Below, piece by piece: positions 26,249-34,877 of a stretch of 64,000 nucleotides of DNA. The stretch is taken from contig WHTT01000013.1 of assembly GCA_009377605.1 (NCBI GenBank), forward strand, positions 1 to 64,000, in the 5' to 3' direction. Under the pieces are notes generated by a model. It made no database searches and was not told the DNA's origin. It saw nothing but the letters and a program-made list of their open reading frames with translations. How positions within the stretch are numbered: the first letter of the stretch is position 1; the number at the start of each line of letters is the position of its first letter. The position numbers were made by a program, and so were the translations under genes. The DNA is from Luteitalea sp. Lineage in GTDB: Bacteria; Acidobacteriota; Vicinamibacteria; Vicinamibacterales; Vicinamibacteraceae.

Positions 26249-28099
26249 TTATCCCTTCCTCCCCAGAGCTCTATCGAGATTGAACGCGGCGCTGATAAGG
26301 GCCAAGTGCGTAAAGGCCTGTGGGAAGTTGCCGAGGGCTTCACCGCTCGGGCCCGTCTGTTCTGCGTAGAGCCCGAGATGGTTCGCGTAGCCCAGCATCT
26401 GCTCGAACAGGAGACGCGCTTCCTCCAGACGCTGGCCGTCGAACTGCCCTGCACGCGTCAGCGCCTCGACCAACCAAAACGTGCACATGTTGAACGAGCC
26501 CTCGTGGCCCCGTAGGCCGTCGACGCCGGTGCGCGGATCGTAACGATAGACGGCGCTGCTCGACATCAGGCCCCCCTCGTGAAGTGGCTTCATCACCGCA
26601 TCGATTGTGCGCAGCATCCGTGGATCGCTCGGCGAGACGAAGAACACGAGCGGCATCAGCAGCGTCGCTGCATCGAGGTCGTCGGAGCCATAGTACTGCA
26701 CGAACGCGTTGCGCTGCTGGCTCCAGCCGCGCTCCATGATCTCCAGGAACAGCTTGTCGCGCTCGGCGAGCCACACCGTTCGGTTGGAAGGGAGTGAGCG
26801 CTTGTCCGCCAGGCGGACGGCGCGATCCAGCGCGACCCAACACATAAGCTTCGAGTAGACGAAAGGCTTCCGTCCACCGCGCACTTCCCAGATGCTCTCG
26901 TCGTCTTCGGCCCAGTTCTCCACGACCCAGTCGACCAGGCGGGAAACGGCGCGCCAGAGGTCGGTCGAGATCGGCCGACCGTACTTGTTGAACAGATATA
27001 CGGCGTCCAACAGCTCACCGTAGATATCCAGCTGCAGTTGTTCCGAAGCGCCGTTGCCAATGCGGACGGGACGTGAGCCGCGGTAGCCGGCGAGATGATC
27101 GAGCGTCACTTCCGGCAGATACGGGCGGCCATCGATGCTGTACATCGTTTGAAGGCCCACGTTGGTGGCTTCGTGACATCGCGCTTCGATCCAGCCCATG
27201 AAGTCTGCGGCTTCACTGGTGAAACCGATCCGGATCAGCGCGTAGAGGGTGAACGCCGCATCGCGGACCCAGACGTAGCGATAGTCCCAATTGCGCTCGC
27301 CGCCGATGTGCTCGGGCAGGCTACAGGTTGGCGCGGCAATGAGCGCGCCGGTTGGCTCGAAGGTGAGCAGCTTCAAGGCGAGTGCCGAGCGATACACCGT
27401 CTCGCGCCAGCGGCCGGTATAGGTACAGCGTTCGAGCCAGCGTCGCCAGAATTGCACCGTCTCGCGAAAGAGCGCCTCTCCCTCTTCATGCGCCAGGCAT
27501 GACAACAGCGGCCTGTCGTCCCGGAGCTCGTAGAGGACGAAGACGTGCTCCTCCCCCTCCTGCAGCACGAACTCCGCCGCGACGCCTGATCCGTCGCGGA
27601 CGAGCGGCACCGGTCCACACAACGCCAGACGCAGTCGACGGCCGCTGAACCGGGCGCCATCCTGGACCAGCTCACACTCAGGGACCTCGCGCGCGTAGTC
27701 GAACATGAGGCGACACTCGAGCCGAAAGCGGATCTCGCCGCGCGAGCAGCGGACGCGGCGGATGATCGCGCGCCGGAACGGGTGATCTTCGGCAACATTG
27801 ACCGGCATGAAGTCCACGACCTCACCGACACCCTGCGGTGAGAGAAAACGTGTGACGAGCACGTTCGTGTCCGGCCAGTAGAACTGCCTCGTGACGCTGT
27901 CGTGATCGGTGTAGATGCGGAACGAACCGCCACGCGCTGGGTCGAGCAGCGCGGCACAGACAGTTGGCGAATCGAAGAACGGCCAGCAAAGCCAATCGAT
28001 CGATCCGTCGCGACCAACGAGCGCGACCGTGCGCATGTTGCCGATGATGCCGTAGTCCTCGATAGGCTTGAACGCGTCCAAGGTATGGGTTGTGTGCAT
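26249..28099 (-). CDS. glycoside hydrolase family 15 (trehalase/glucoamylase-like)
   Basis: 616 residues, normal for bacterial GH15. An N-terminal beta-sandwich ([20 protein letters not shown], then [20 protein letters not shown]) is followed by the (alpha/alpha)6 catalytic domain: [38 protein letters not shown], and [20 protein letters not shown] with the catalytic glutamate region. No signal peptide, so it acts in the cytoplasm. Many similar proteins hydrolyse trehalose; that is the best guess but not proven. First gene of a likely operon with the TraB/GumN gene. Confidence 0.9.
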
Positions 28100-29411: not shown

Positions 29412-32249
29412 ATGGTTTGTCGTATCAGATATGCCGGCGCGTGGTTCGTCGTTGGTCTGATGGCCGCGGCGCTCACGCCGGCTCGGTGGGCCGGAGCGGC
29501 GCAGATTGCAACGCAGTCGTCGTCGGTGGGGGCACAGGCGGCCTTCGCGGGGCAGTCTGCAGCTCCGGCCACACTAGCGGCGCGTTCGGCGAACGCGCCC
29601 TACCCCGATGGTTCGGCGAACGCGCCGTACCACGATGGCGGTAGGGACGCCTCGCCGAGGCGCGCTGACGATGCTGCGGGTCAATCCGCCGGAACCGTCA
29701 GCGTCGTTGTCACCGATCCCCTCGGTGATCGTATCCCTGGCGCAGATGTGACGCTGGTCGGCCCGCAACCTGCCACAACGCCTATCCCCATGGTGACGGA
29801 TGACCGCGGCGAGGCGCTCTTCGAGAGCCTGGCGCCTGGAACCTATGCGCTGCGTGTCGAGCTGTCCGGGTTCGAGCCATTCGACGAGCCGAGACTGGTG
29901 GTCACCGACCGGCAGCGGGTCACGAGAGAGGTGGAGCTCGCGCTGAGCAAGGTTCTCGAAGACGTGGCGGTCACGCAAGACCCGACCGAGACGGCGCTCG
30001 CCAACAACTTCACGCAAGCCTTGACCCAAGAGCAGATCGAAAATCTCCCGGACGATCCCGAGGAGATGGCGGAGGTCATCGAGGCGATAGCCGGTCCTGG
30101 CGCCGTCATGCGAGTGAACGGGTTCGAGGGCGGGCAGTTGCCGCCCAAGTCTCAAATTCAGGAGATTCGCTTCCGTTTCGATCCGTATTCGGCAGACAAC
30201 CATCAGGCCGGCCGGCCGCGCATCGACATCGTGACCAGGCCGGGCAGCGGCGACTTTCGGAATCAGGTGAATCTCGGCTTTCGTGATCAATCGCTCGATG
30301 CGCGCAGCCCCCTCGCCCCAGAGCGAGGCGATGGCCAGACCCGCCGGTTGCGATGGAGCACGAGTGGCCCCATCGTGAGGAACAAGACCTCGTATGCGAT
30401 CTCGGTCAGCGGCTGGGACGCGTTCGATGCACAGACGATCAACGCGCGGCTGGACAGCGGGCCATTCAGCGACATCGTCGAACAGGGCAATCGTCGGCTC
30501 GAGATGGACTTTCGCCTCGAGCATGCCTTGACGAGCGAGCAGATGCTGCGCTTCGAGTACCAGCGTGAATCGCGCTGGCAGCGCGATCTCGGTGCCACTG
30601 AGCTCGATTTACAGGAGCGTGCCTACGATCGGGATTCTTTCGAGAACCGTGCCCGTATCAGCACGTCGGGCACGTTCGCGAAGCGCTTTCTCAACCACGT
30701 GCGCTTCGAGTACGCGTGGGATGACACCGAGACGATGTCGGCCAGCATGGAGCCGACCATCGACGTGCTCGGCTCGTTTACCTCGGGCGGCGCGCAGCTC
30801 GCCGGCGGCGAGCGCGCGCGGGAGATCGAGGTGGCCGACGACCTCCAGTTCACGCTCGGCAAAATGCACAGTCTCAGTGCCGGCTTCGAGATCGACGTCT
30901 CCCGTTACCGCACCAACGAGCAGTCGAACATGGGCGGGACGTTCACCTTCGCGAGCCTCGACGATTATGTCGCGGGACGCCCGCTCCAGTTCTCCCAGCG
31001 TGAGGGCAACCCGGAGGCGACCTACTCTCGCCACGAGGTCGGCTGGTATGTTCAGGACGACATCCGTCTGCGCAAGGACCTCATGCTCGGCGTTGGCCTG
31101 AGGCACGAGTTTCAGTCACAAATTGACGGCAAGGCAAACTTCTCACCGCGCGCCAGCATCGGTTGGACGCCGTTCGCCAGTGGACGAACGACCATCCGCG
31201 CAGGCGGGGGCATCTTCTATGACTGGTACGGGGCGGACACGTACGCGCAGACCGTGCTCGTCGATGGACTTCGTCAACGGGACATCATCATCCAGAATCC
31301 CTCTTATCCAGATCCGTTCGCAGGGGCGGCCAGTGAGACGATTCCACCGAGCCGGATTCAGGCTGCCGAGGATCTCCGGCTGCCCAGGCTGACACGCGTG
31401 TCGGTCGGCGTCGACCAACAGCTGACAGAGTGGGCACGGCTTCGCACCAACTATTTCCGCGAGGAGACCTCGCATCGACTGCGTGGGCTGAACATCAACG
31501 CGCCTATCGACGGCGTGCGACCGTCTCCGGAGTTCGAGCGTATCACCGAGATCCAGTCGATTGGACGGGCCGAGGAGCAGGGGGTCGACCTGAGCCTCAT
31601 GATGTCCTACATGCCGCGCAGTCTGTTCGGCGTCATCAGCTATCGATACGGCAGGTCCATGAACGACGCAGACGGACCGCTCAGCCTGCCGGCCGACGGC
31701 TCCGACCTCGCCAGCGAGTGGGGACCGGCGAGCGGCGACATTCGCCACCAGATCTTCAGCTTCATCAACGTGCAACTCCCGAAGGGCTTTGGTCTAGGAC
31801 TCCACGCGCGCGTGAGCTCTGGTGCGCCCTACAACAGAACGCTGGGCACTGATGCCAACGGGGATACGGCCACCAACGACCGGTCCGAGGGGGTGTCACG
31901 TAATAGTGAGCTGGGCGACTGGCAGAAGAACGTGGATCTGCGTTTGAGCTGGGGGTTCGGCTCCGGCGTTGGCCGCGGCGGTGGTGGCGGTCGCGGTGGT
32001 GGTGGACGGGGCCCTGGTGGGCCCCGCGGTGGTGGTGGTCCACCCGGCGGTGGGCCTCAGACCGTCGGCATGCGAGATCGGCAGCAAGGGCGTCCGACGG
32101 GGCTCGAGGTCTATATTCAGGCGCTCAACGTGTTCAATATTGCCAACTACACACGATATGGCGGTGTCGAAAGCGCGCCGAACTTTGGCGAGCCCATCAG
32201 CGCCATGCCTGGCCGCCAGCTGGAGCTCGGCATGCGCGTCTCCTTCTAG
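29412..32249 (+). CDS. TonB-dependent receptor, Oar-like, with repeat-derived insertion
   Basis: 945 residues from the ATG at 29412 (AGCAGG upstream; a TTG at 29406 is in frame). Signal peptide at about 1-30. A carboxypeptidase-regulatory beta-sandwich covers about 95-180 (VVVTDPLGDRIPGADVTL, then SLAPGTYALRVELSGFEPFD). A plug-like region and a long barrel follow, ending in the aromatic C-terminus RQLELGMRVSF. Between signal and regulatory domain, residues about 58-90 are encoded by an in-frame copy of the intergenic GCGTTCGGCGAACGCGCC repeat. A Gly-rich loop lies near residues 855-880. It probably imports large or complex ligands across the outer membrane. Confidence 0.9.
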   Translation: MVCRIRYAGAWFVVGLMAAALTPARWAGAAQIATQSSSVGAQAAFAGQSAAPATLAARSANAPYPDGSANAPYHDGGRDASPRRADDAAGQSAGTVSVVVTDPLGDRIPGADVTLVGPQPATTPIPMVTDDRGEALFESLAPGTYALRVELSGFEPFDEPRLVVTDRQRVTREVELALSKVLEDVAVTQDPTETALANNFTQALTQEQIENLPDDPEEMAEVIEAIAGPGAVMRVNGFEGGQLPPKSQIQEIRFRFDPYSADNHQAGRPRIDIVTRPGSGDFRNQVNLGFRDQSLDARSPLAPERGDGQTRRLRWSTSGPIVRNKTSYAISVSGWDAFDAQTINARLDSGPFSDIVEQGNRRLEMDFRLEHALTSEQMLRFEYQRESRWQRDLGATELDLQERAYDRDSFENRARISTSGTFAKRFLNHVRFEYAWDDTETMSASMEPTIDVLGSFTSGGAQLAGGERAREIEVADDLQFTLGKMHSLSAGFEIDVSRYRTNEQSNMGGTFTFASLDDYVAGRPLQFSQREGNPEATYSRHEVGWYVQDDIRLRKDLMLGVGLRHEFQSQIDGKANFSPRASIGWTPFASGRTTIRAGGGIFYDWYGADTYAQTVLVDGLRQRDIIIQNPSYPDPFAGAASETIPPSRIQAAEDLRLPRLTRVSVGVDQQLTEWARLRTNYFREETSHRLRGLNINAPIDGVRPSPEFERITEIQSIGRAEEQGVDLSLMMSYMPRSLFGVISYRYGRSMNDADGPLSLPADGSDLASEWGPASGDIRHQIFSFINVQLPKGFGLGLHARVSSGAPYNRTLGTDANGDTATNDRSEGVSRNSELGDWQKNVDLRLSWGFGSGVGRGGGGGRGGGGRGPGGPRGGGGPPGGGPQTVGMRDRQQGRPTGLEVYIQALNVFNIANYTRYGGVESAPNFGEPISAMPGRQLELGMRVSF
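29579..29671. repeat. GCGTTCGGCGAACGCGCC/CGCCTCGCCGAGGCG repeat inside a coding sequence
   Basis: Contains GCGTTCGGCGAACGCGCCCT, a second TTCGGCGAACGCGCC, and GTAGGGACGCCTCGCCGAGG. The same modules occur in non-coding DNA at 1670, 28186 and 41528. It is translated in frame as NAPYPDGSANAPYHDGGRDA within the TonB receptor. Confidence 0.85.
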
Positions 32250-32280
32250 TGGTCTGCTGGACCCTCCAACCTCCTCCCAA

Positions 32281-32313
32281 GGGGCAGGTCAAACCCACCT
32301 GCCCCTATTTTTT
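32281..32313 (+). terminator. rho-independent terminator after the TonB receptor
   Basis: Perfect arms GGGGCAGGT (32281-32289) and ACCTGCCCC (32297-32305) with a 7-base loop, followed by TATTTTTT. Textbook intrinsic terminator. Confidence 0.9.
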
Positions 32314-32391
32314 CCCGCGAGCGTCGCTCCTCGACTCGCCCGCTCCAACCTCGGACAGTAGTAAACTCGCGGCGAGAACGGAGGCGCGTCG

Positions 32392-32835
32392 ATGGAAGCT
32401 GACAGCGTACGGCGGTATCAGGTGCAGGCCCGCTCGACGGATATGCTCGGCCGGGTCTTGTGCAGCGCCAGGCAACATCACTTCGTCGTGGATGGTCCGG
32501 CGCAGAACGGCTGTCCCGGCGAAGCGGTGACGCCAGCCGAGGTCTTTCTCGCGGGCGTCGCCTCCTGCGGTGTCGAGCTGATTCAGGTGATCGCGCGCGA
32601 TCAGGGTATGACGCTCGGTGGCGTCACGGCGCAAATCGACGGCTGGGTCGACCGCGAGCACCCTGTCCGCAGCGATCACACTGTCTTCAACGGGGCCCGG
32701 CTCCGGCTCCAACTCACCGGCGTGACGTCCAAGGAGGCTGAGGAGCTCGTGGAGAAGTTCAAGTCGAGATGACCGCTCTATGGCACGCTTGCAGTTGCAA
32801 GCCCGGACGTTGCGGTTGAGCTCGACGTCATTTGA
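32392..32835 (+). CDS. OsmC-family peroxiredoxin, probable selenoprotein (UGA at codon 127)
   Basis: GGAGG seven bases before the ATG. The first 126 residues show the OsmC fold: VVDGPAQNGCPGEAVTPAEV, the first reactive-cysteine helix FLAGVASCGVELIQVIA (Cys63), and LTGVTSKEAEELVEKFKSR. At 32770-32772 an in-frame TGA stands exactly where the family has its second conserved cysteine (CPLY or CPVY); the frame then continues with PLYGTLAVASPDVAVELDVI and stops at 32833-32835, giving 147 residues, the usual OsmC length. A hairpin with a G-containing tetraloop follows the TGA at SECIS distance. Known family chemistry is thiol reduction of organic hydroperoxides, and Sec-containing OsmC-like proteins are known from metagenomes. 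If UGA is a plain stop, the product is a 126-residue protein without the second active-site residue. Confidence 0.7.
32770..32804 (+). promoter_or_regulatory. in-frame UGA with bacterial SECIS-like hairpin
   Basis: UGA at 32770-32772. The upper stem is CTTGC (32788-32792) with GCAAG (32797-32801), closed further by G32787-C32802, and beyond a three-base bulge GG (32782-32783) with CC (32803-32804). The apical loop AGTT has G at its second position and starts 20 bases after UGA. These values fit the bacterial SECIS rules (loop 16-37 bases after UGA, G among the first two loop bases). Confidence 0.6.
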
Positions 32836-32856
32836 CTGCCTTGCCGCCATCCGAAC

Positions 32857-32879
32857 CTCGGTAACGTGGCGTCACCGAG
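32857..32879 (+). terminator. hairpin after the extended osmC reading frame
   Basis: CTCGGT (32857-32862) pairs with ACCGAG (32874-32879), with an inner ACG/CGT stem and a TGG loop. It begins 22 bases after the second stop of the osmC frame, not after the UGA. No T-tract. Confidence 0.4.
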
Positions 32880-33053
32880 ATCTGTTCCTGCCGCGTAGTG
32901 TCTCAGTACACCGTCTGCTAAGGGGCCGATCGCACCGACCAGCCTCGGCCGTAGCGTTCCCGGCGGATAGCGCGCGGTGTGGTGCGTCCAGCGTTCCGTA
33001 TTTTCAGCACACGGATCAACTGGCGCGGATCTCGCATAGGCTGCACAGCACGA

Positions 33054-34235
33054 ATGGTCCGAGGAGGGACGACAAGGGCATTCGATGGGTGCCAAACTGA
33101 GCCGTGCATCGCATTGGATCGTCACGGCAATAGCCGGGGCGGGCCGGCGCGAGCCGTCCGACACCGGCGTTGCACACGGCGTCGCTGCTTGGCCGTTGTG
33201 GCGGTTGCCGCATCGATTCTCTTGCCGTCTGCGAGCGTCAGCGTTCAGGAGGAGCGCCGAACGCTGCAGAATGTCCTCCACGATATCGGTCTGAATGCTC
33301 GCGATGTGCGAACGGTCGAGAGCGGGCGCCCTGTCTCGATGCTCCTGAGCACGGATCTCGCGCACGAGATTGCGGTGTTCGGCAGCGTCCGCATTGACGT
33401 CTCTGCAGCGACATTCGTGGAGCGCTTTCGCGACATTGCCAGGTTCGAGTCCGGAGAGAGCGTCAGGCAGATCGGCACATTCCGTCAGCCGCCAACGCTC
33501 GACGACGTCAAGGCACTTCGCATGCCACTCGACGATCTCCGGGCGTTGTCGCAGTGCGAGATTGGCAAGTGCGCCGTGAAGTTGCCCGCGGAGGCAATGA
33601 CGCGCATCCGGCGAGAGGGGGGAGGAGGGACCAGCGCGCGCGCGCGTGCCGACGCGATACTCAAAGACATGCTCGTCGGCTTCGTCACGGCGTATCGCGC
33701 ACAGGGCAACGGCGCCCTGCCGGAGCTGAGCGACCAGGATCAGCCCCTGCGTTCCGGCGACGCGTTCGAGGAGATGCTGGAGGAGAGCAGCTCGCTCCTC
33801 TCCAGTCAGCCGGAGCTCAGCGACTATCTGCGATCCTACCCCAGAGCGCGCCTTGCCAACGCCGACGACTTCTTCTACTGGTCGTTGGTGGACTTCGGTA
33901 TCAAGCCCACGCTCCGCGTCAATCACGTCACCATCTACCAGCCACCGCCTGATCGAGGGATCGACTACGCCATTGCCTCGAAGCAGATCTACGCGAGTCA
34001 CTACTTCGACGCGGCGCTGGAACTGAAGTTCCTGGTGGAGGACCCGCTGCAGGAGGGGCTCGATCGCGTGTATCTTCTGGTTGTGAACCGCGCTCGGATT
34101 GGCGGACTGACAGGCCTCCTCCGCGCGCTGATCCGTCCCTCGGCGCGCCGCAGGACGCGCGACGCTCTGGACCGCTATCTTCGAAGCACAAAGGCGCGAC
34201 TCGAACAGGCGTCGGCCGAGGCCGTGACGCGGTGA
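33054..34235 (+). CDS. exported protein of unknown function
   Basis: The start is uncertain: the frame is open from a GTG at 32979, has an ATG at 33054 and a TTG at 33189, and none has a convincing Shine-Dalgarno. The hydrophobic stretch CLAVVAVAASILLPSASVS looks like a signal peptide, which would suit a start nearer to it. The mature part is about 330 residues, mixed alpha/beta, with SDYLRSYPRARLANADDFFY, DFGIKPTLRVNHVTIYQPPP and ALELKFLVEDPLQEGLDRVY as probable core strands and a basic C-terminal helix. I recognise no family. It stands alone between the osmC terminator and the palindrome at 34256. Confidence 0.6.
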   Translation: MVRGGTTRAFDGCQTEPCIALDRHGNSRGGPARAVRHRRCTRRRCLAVVAVAASILLPSASVSVQEERRTLQNVLHDIGLNARDVRTVESGRPVSMLLSTDLAHEIAVFGSVRIDVSAATFVERFRDIARFESGESVRQIGTFRQPPTLDDVKALRMPLDDLRALSQCEIGKCAVKLPAEAMTRIRREGGGGTSARARADAILKDMLVGFVTAYRAQGNGALPELSDQDQPLRSGDAFEEMLEESSSLLSSQPELSDYLRSYPRARLANADDFFYWSLVDFGIKPTLRVNHVTIYQPPPDRGIDYAIASKQIYASHYFDAALELKFLVEDPLQEGLDRVYLLVVNRARIGGLTGLLRALIRPSARRRTRDALDRYLRSTKARLEQASAEAVTR

Positions 34236-34255
34236 CCGGAGATAATCGTCTGTAG

Positions 34256-34275
34256 GCCCGACCTTCAGGTCGGGC
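34256..34275. repeat. GCCCGACCT palindrome
   Basis: GCCCGACCTTCAGGTCGGGC, same family as 8374-8393 (one central base differs). Preceded in both places by GTAG. Located just upstream of pdxH. Confidence 0.75.
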
Positions 34276-34295
34276 GCTGGAGCGTCTACACGTCG

Positions 34296-34877
34296 ATGAA
34301 CGATTCAGATCCGCTCGCACTGTTCCGTCACGCCTTCGAGCGCGCCGCGGCACAGGCGCCGTTCGATCACACCGCGTGCGCGCTGGCGACCGCGTTGTCC
34401 GACGGCCGGCCTTCCGTCCGGGTGGTGCTCCTCCACGGCTTGGATGAGCGGGGCTTCGTCTTCTACACCAACTACGCGAGCCGCAAGGCGCGCGAGCTCG
34501 ACGACAACCCGCGCGCGGCGCTGTGCTTCTACTGGCCCTGGATCGACGAGCAGGTTCGCGTCGAGGGTGTCGCGGCACGAATTGCGCCCGACGAATCGGA
34601 CGCGTACTTCGTGACCCGTCCGCGCGGAAGCCGGCTTGGCGCGTGGGCGTCGAAGCAGAGCCAGGTGCTCACGTCGCGTGACGAGCTGCTGGCGCGCTTG
34701 CGCGAGACCGAGGCACGATTCCCTGGCGAAGACGTGCCGCGGCCATCGTTCTGGGGGGGATATCGCCTGACGCCAGACGTCATCGAGTTCTGGAAATCCG
34801 AGGAGTTTCGGCTGCACGATCGCGTTCGGTACCGGCGAGTCGAGCACGGTTGGCAACGCGAGCGACTCTATCCGTGA
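34296..34877 (+). CDS. pdxH: pyridoxamine 5'-phosphate oxidase
   Basis: 193 residues. Oxidises pyridoxamine or pyridoxine 5'-phosphate to pyridoxal 5'-phosphate using FMN. Conserved parts are ALATALSDGRPSVRVVLLHG and GFVFYTNYASRKARELDDNP (FMN-binding barrel), GSRLGAWASKQSQVL, and the C-terminal signature VIEFWKSEEFRLHDRVRY, matching the PdxH pattern with the substrate-binding HDR. Slightly shorter than the E. coli enzyme because the N-terminal arm is reduced. Its stop codon directly abuts the stop of the convergent gene, without a base between. Confidence 0.93.
   Translation: MNDSDPLALFRHAFERAAAQAPFDHTACALATALSDGRPSVRVVLLHGLDERGFVFYTNYASRKARELDDNPRAALCFYWPWIDEQVRVEGVAARIAPDESDAYFVTRPRGSRLGAWASKQSQVLTSRDELLARLRETEARFPGEDVPRPSFWGGYRLTPDVIEFWKSEEFRLHDRVRYRRVEHGWQRERLYP

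Follow-up and report, generated by a model that had tools for sequence, protein, structure and literature searches.

OsmC-like selenoproteins have already been described as a predicted family, in which selenocysteine (Sec, U) lies within a UxxT motif (PMC1088965, PMC2398784, PMC13188914). The published members located in this analysis come from marine metagenomes, those of the Sargasso Sea and the GOS collection, and belong to COG1765/PF02566 (PMC1088965, PMC2398784). A gene of this kind is found at 32392–32835 of the window, the whole 64,000-nucleotide stretch of Luteitalea sp. DNA analysed here (features are on the plus strand unless stated otherwise). Its product has in common with the known UxxT proteins the PF02566 fold, an in-frame UGA directly followed by a SECIS element, and homologues that carry Cys. 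By comparison, the motif at the UGA is UPLY instead of UxxT in all four Sec forms of the window type.

We estimate a probability of about 95% that the gene encodes an OsmC/Ohr selenoprotein in which SelB reads the hairpin and inserts Sec127, with Cys59 and Sec127 as a redox pair whose chemistry would follow that of the superfamily. In the decoding step, SelB with Sec-tRNA would bind the hairpin that directly follows the UGA and thereby place Sec at residue 127, and translation would continue past Sec127 until the terminal TGA beginning at 32833. What this analysis shows by computation, as set out below, is the family membership, the presence of the decoding machinery, the conservation of UGA or Cys at the site and the SECIS element.

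The gene, its protein family and the predicted redox pair

The gene starts with ATG at 32392, preceded by GGAGG at 32380–32384, and ends with a TGA at 32833–32835, giving a protein of 147 residues. The in-frame TGA at 32770–32772 is read as Sec (U127), and the 20 codons between it and the second TGA include PLYGTLAVA. The upstream TonB-receptor-type gene has its own intrinsic terminator at 32280–32306, which separates it from the OsmC-like gene and is the sole terminator-like site at 32200–33200. The sequence-only reading had placed a terminator-like hairpin after the second stop, a claim that calls for a small correction: a hairpin near 32859–32882 has no T-run, and within the region searched no intrinsic terminator lies 3' of that stop. 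On the minus strand, an open frame of 181 amino acids (window 32305–32850) spans the whole OsmC-like gene and is probably a GC-rich shadow frame.

Read through the UGA, the protein matches PF02566 over profile positions 3–98 of 100 at 48.4 bits, above the gathering cut-off of 27.5, whereas the protein ended at the UGA matches positions 3–82 at 34.5 bits. The phmmer alignments to 6mjn and 4mh4 place the UGA codon at the second conserved Cys of Ohr/OsmC proteins and Cys59 (32566–32568) at the first, the peroxidatic Cys. Two claims made from the sequence alone are upheld by these matches, namely that the TGA falls on the second conserved OsmC Cys and that the frame runs on through PLYGTLAVA to a length of 147 residues. 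The Ohr family model TIGR03561 gives 29.3 bits, below its curated cut-off of 88.85, and the NCBIfam Ohr models match weakly overall (19–29 bits; cut-offs 88.85 and 240). An AlphaFold model built on two sequences (pLDDT 62, pTM 0.62, residues 1–45 poor) is best matched in Foldseek by Ohr/OsmC structures.

In Ohr, the N-terminal Cys is peroxidatic and the C-terminal Cys is resolving, and we take Cys59 and residue 127 to be the two redox positions of the Ohr/OsmC superfamily. By analogy, the redox pair of Ohr/OsmC peroxidases would here consist of Sec127 and of Cys59 in the central helix: one of the two would attack the hydroperoxide, the other would resolve the intermediate to a Cys–Se bond, and this bond would then be reduced by a dithiol. 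The superfamily is our guide to the thiol/selenol peroxidase-type chemistry, to the residue that may attack first and to the likely substrate.

A different mechanism for a true selenoprotein, compatible with the decoding part of this explanation, is possible at somewhat less than even odds: Sec127 may be peroxidatic with Cys59 resolving, C24 or C41 may take part, or the substrate may be something other than a peroxide. Sec is usually found as the attacking residue, all eight aligned sequences have Cys24 and the Sec forms also share Cys41, and the weak matches to the Ohr models likewise leave room for another chemistry. On the other side, in the alignment with Ohr-type proteins Cys59 stands at the peroxidatic Cys and residue 127 at the C-terminal, resolving one, which favours the Ohr-like assignment of the Cys59/Sec127 pair.

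Conservation of the UGA codon and the downstream frame

Orthologues were sought in six frames with stops read through, in 396 genomes sampled across the phylum. The orthologue in a second genome of the genus (G001; Luteitalea sp. Dino_bin50, WHTZ01000031.1) is 84% identical and has a single TGA at the same codon. The phylum sample yielded two further TGA forms (G231 and G098) from other acidobacterial families, which are 59 and 56% identical, score about 200 bits and likewise have a single TGA at this codon, together with four Cys forms, all in family f35 (G082, G106, G331 and G354). The TGA thus occupies the same codon in four genomes from three acidobacterial families, and the protein downstream is conserved. 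In family f35 the codon is TGC or TGT, and the motif RCPLYGTVA stands against RUPLYGTVA/LA of the Sec forms; the consensus around the site in the eight aligned proteins is R-[U/C]-P-L-Y-G-T-[LV]-A-x-A-x-P. The sequence-only reading had named downstream conservation among relatives as a point on which it could fail, and we see no loss of it, the downstream protein being kept in all four UGA genomes.

In an unrooted gene tree, the Sec forms and the Cys forms lie on opposite sides of a fully supported branch. Within the order of the window, the gene occurs in 2 of 162 genomes, both of the same genus, and the orders to which G231 and G098 belong yielded no further full-length Sec form when searched. 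A search of genome contigs using the alignment had the Luteitalea record as its sole match. Two contig-edge fragments from the family of G098 (G424:C466:4-222 and G434:C220:1-102), which end 5' of the Sec/Cys site, are probable orthologues of the OsmC-like gene.

Codon-level comparison points in the same direction as the protein alignment. Of the 126 codons 5' of the UGA, 58 (46%) differ between the window and G001, as against 1 of 15 directly 3' of it, where third positions are nearly frozen. Synonymous change past the UGA, a comparison proposed beforehand, is nearly absent between these two closest genomes. This freeze exceeds what protein constraint alone would lead one to expect and fits an overlapping RNA signal.

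These observations bear on the simplest alternative, in which the UGA is a plain stop and the gene a 126-residue OsmC fragment or pseudogene. An open frame past the TGA says little by itself, since 61% of TGAs in the GC-rich window have twenty open codons after them, which makes such a frame common rather than unusual. A plain stop is nevertheless very improbable: four genomes of three families share the TGA and conserve the protein beyond it, relatives have Cys in its place, synonymous change is suppressed directly past it, and a protein ending there would lack the second conserved Cys together with the end of the OsmC domain. The selenoprotein reading accommodates all of these features.

No neighbour gene is common to the three Sec lineages when their ORF lists are inspected by eye, so the genomic context gives no function. 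The upstream TonB-receptor-type gene is in place in both same-genus genomes. The two genes downstream of the OsmC-like gene (an unassigned ORF and a pdxH-like gene; window 32979–34877 versus 5520–7341 of L056) are inverted in the other genome of the genus, which is a small local inversion.

The SECIS hairpin and the selenocysteine machinery

The SECIS hairpin lies at 32787–32802, with a 6-bp stem (GCTTGC/GCAAGC), the loop AGTT at 32793–32796 and a conserved G at 32794. Its stem begins 14 nt past the UGA and its loop lies at 20 nt; the sequence-only reading had the stem itself at 20 bases, and what stands of that description is the 4-nt apical loop at this distance and the G within it. The hairpin is GCTTGC-AGTT-GCAAGC in the window and in G001, GGTCGC-AGTT-GCGACC in G231 and CGTCGC-AGTT-GCGACG in G098. 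Over these four sequences, on which the comparison rests, 100% of the stem cells are paired, three of the six pairs are changed on both sides, the AGTT loop is invariant, and shifted pairings fail.

The published bSECIS model specifies a loop of 3–9 nt, a stem of 4–16 bp, a G in the first two loop positions, a spacing of 16–37 nt and an MFE of −7.5 or lower (PMC13188914). The hairpin falls within every one of these limits, with the G second in the loop. Its SECIS-like character, proposed from the sequence alone, therefore gains from the published constraints and from the compensatory pairs between lineages, but not from the single-sequence folding energy, which is not significant (z about −0.3); folding z-scores were dropped as evidence.

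Given the protein and the local codon usage, the stem alone has a probability of 6–14%, and the stem together with the AGTT loop about 0.001–0.002 per lineage. Of the 1,623 TGAs in the window, 3.3% have a model-compatible 6-bp hairpin after them, and one has such a hairpin with a 4-nt loop at exactly 20 nt, the arrangement present in this gene. The Cys forms (L042–L045) also have a hairpin in this position, GTCGC-CGCC-GCGAC, which is similarly long and has the loop CGCC in place of AGTT; it is possibly a relic SECIS, or else reflects codon bias for V-A-A-A-T. Because the Cys forms fold a similar hairpin and the stem alone is 6–14% probable, the hairpin alone is not decisive, and the case for Sec is carried by the comparative evidence, not by the RNA fold.

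As the sequence-only reading had stated, no selA, selB, selC or selD is seen in the window; all are located elsewhere in the genome, a 6.79-Mb draft assembly of 382 contigs that is 97.5% complete. selA (528.7 bits), selB (333.7 bits), selD (344.7 bits) and tRNA-Sec (64.7 bits) are all above their curated cut-offs, and ARAGORN reports a tRNA-SeC with anticodon TCA. The genome-wide search proposed beforehand thus recovers the four components, and the absence of machinery that would speak against Sec is not what is found. Among relatives, tRNA-Sec matches of at least 56 bits occur in about 45 of 60 genomes, matches of 47–53 bits having been left out as probable tRNA-Ser, and every tested carrier of the OsmC-like gene, Cys carriers included, has selA; in G424 a contig edge truncates the gene.

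The selD gene of the same genome has an in-frame TGA of its own (YAACAGU-ASK), the usual Sec site of SelD, and its product is predicted to be a selenoprotein itself. This TGA points independently to the decoding of UGA as Sec in this genome. A GC-rich hairpin is also present directly 3' of the UGA in the SelD region (L036 1483–1533; G000:C30, about 27537–27587).

Programmed readthrough of the UGA, or its reassignment to another amino acid such as Trp, would also account for a frame that is open and conserved. We consider it highly improbable, as the terminal stop of the gene is itself TGA, the genome encodes all of the Sec machinery and its SelD is of the Sec type, the SECIS-type hairpin is conserved, and relatives have Cys at this position, which is the usual counterpart of Sec. 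A sequencing or assembly error in which TGC or TGT was misread as TGA might be entertained for a draft in 382 contigs, and its probability is negligible given that the assemblies of G001, G231 and G098 show this TGA as well. The selenoprotein reading is supported by the Sec machinery, the shared UGA codon, Cys in relatives, downstream conservation and a SECIS hairpin with compensatory changes.

Comparison with known OsmC-like proteins

The Ohr/OsmC organic hydroperoxide resistance proteins (for example, PDB 6mjn, 1nye and 1n2f) have the same fold and the Cys positions 59 and 127, and Glu50, shortly before the first Cys, is invariant and common to them and the window protein. By comparison, identity of the window protein to the closest structure is about 26%, Sec replaces the second Cys, and the window type has an extra conserved Cys24, plus Cys41 in the Sec forms. 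The Cys relatives of family f35 are 37–38% identical to the window protein and, in addition to the codon, motif and loop differences given above, are without its NGCPGE segment.

NF041052 (OsmC_like_Se), which models OsmC-related (seleno)proteins, is the best NCBIfam match of the window protein, yet the four Sec forms score 31.1–32.9 bits against a cut-off of 95. The suggestion that this is a known but rare class of selenoprotein is thus right as to the class, whereas the known members have UxxT and the window protein has UPLY and lies far under the cut-off. The standard code (table 11) ends the gene at the UGA, and with NF041052 also under its cut-off, such genes are likely to be overlooked, being entered in annotations as fragments of 126 residues.

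UxxT was not accepted on its own as establishing Sec at the first Cys, since three relatives (L022, L026 and L031) have CxxT (CLIT/CLVT) at the second Cys, which makes the motif ambiguous; for this reason, the NF041052 profile was probed with single-residue variants. With T placed at +3 from the first Cys (E62T) the score rises by 3.8 bits, against 0.1 for T at +3 from the second (Y130T), and masking the first Cys costs 8.7 bits. As T lifts the score after the first Cys and not after the second, the first Cys is probably where the known UxxT proteins carry Sec, on condition that NF041052 covers the published proteins; the profile probing is indirect in this respect.

It is likely that the window protein represents an undescribed OsmC subfamily, patchy in acidobacterial families, with Sec at the second, resolving-type Cys and Cys retained at the first. 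The Acidobacteriota set, with both Sec and Cys forms, would then offer a natural test of the advantage of Sec over Cys at the second, resolving-type position of a two-cysteine peroxidase fold. Should the known family instead have Sec at the second Cys, the window protein would be a new member of that family rather than a variant. As the comparison stands, the known UxxT type probably has Sec at the first Cys, whereas the window type has Sec at the second and keeps Cys at the first; if this holds, the OsmC fold would have acquired Sec on separate occasions at its two catalytic cysteines.
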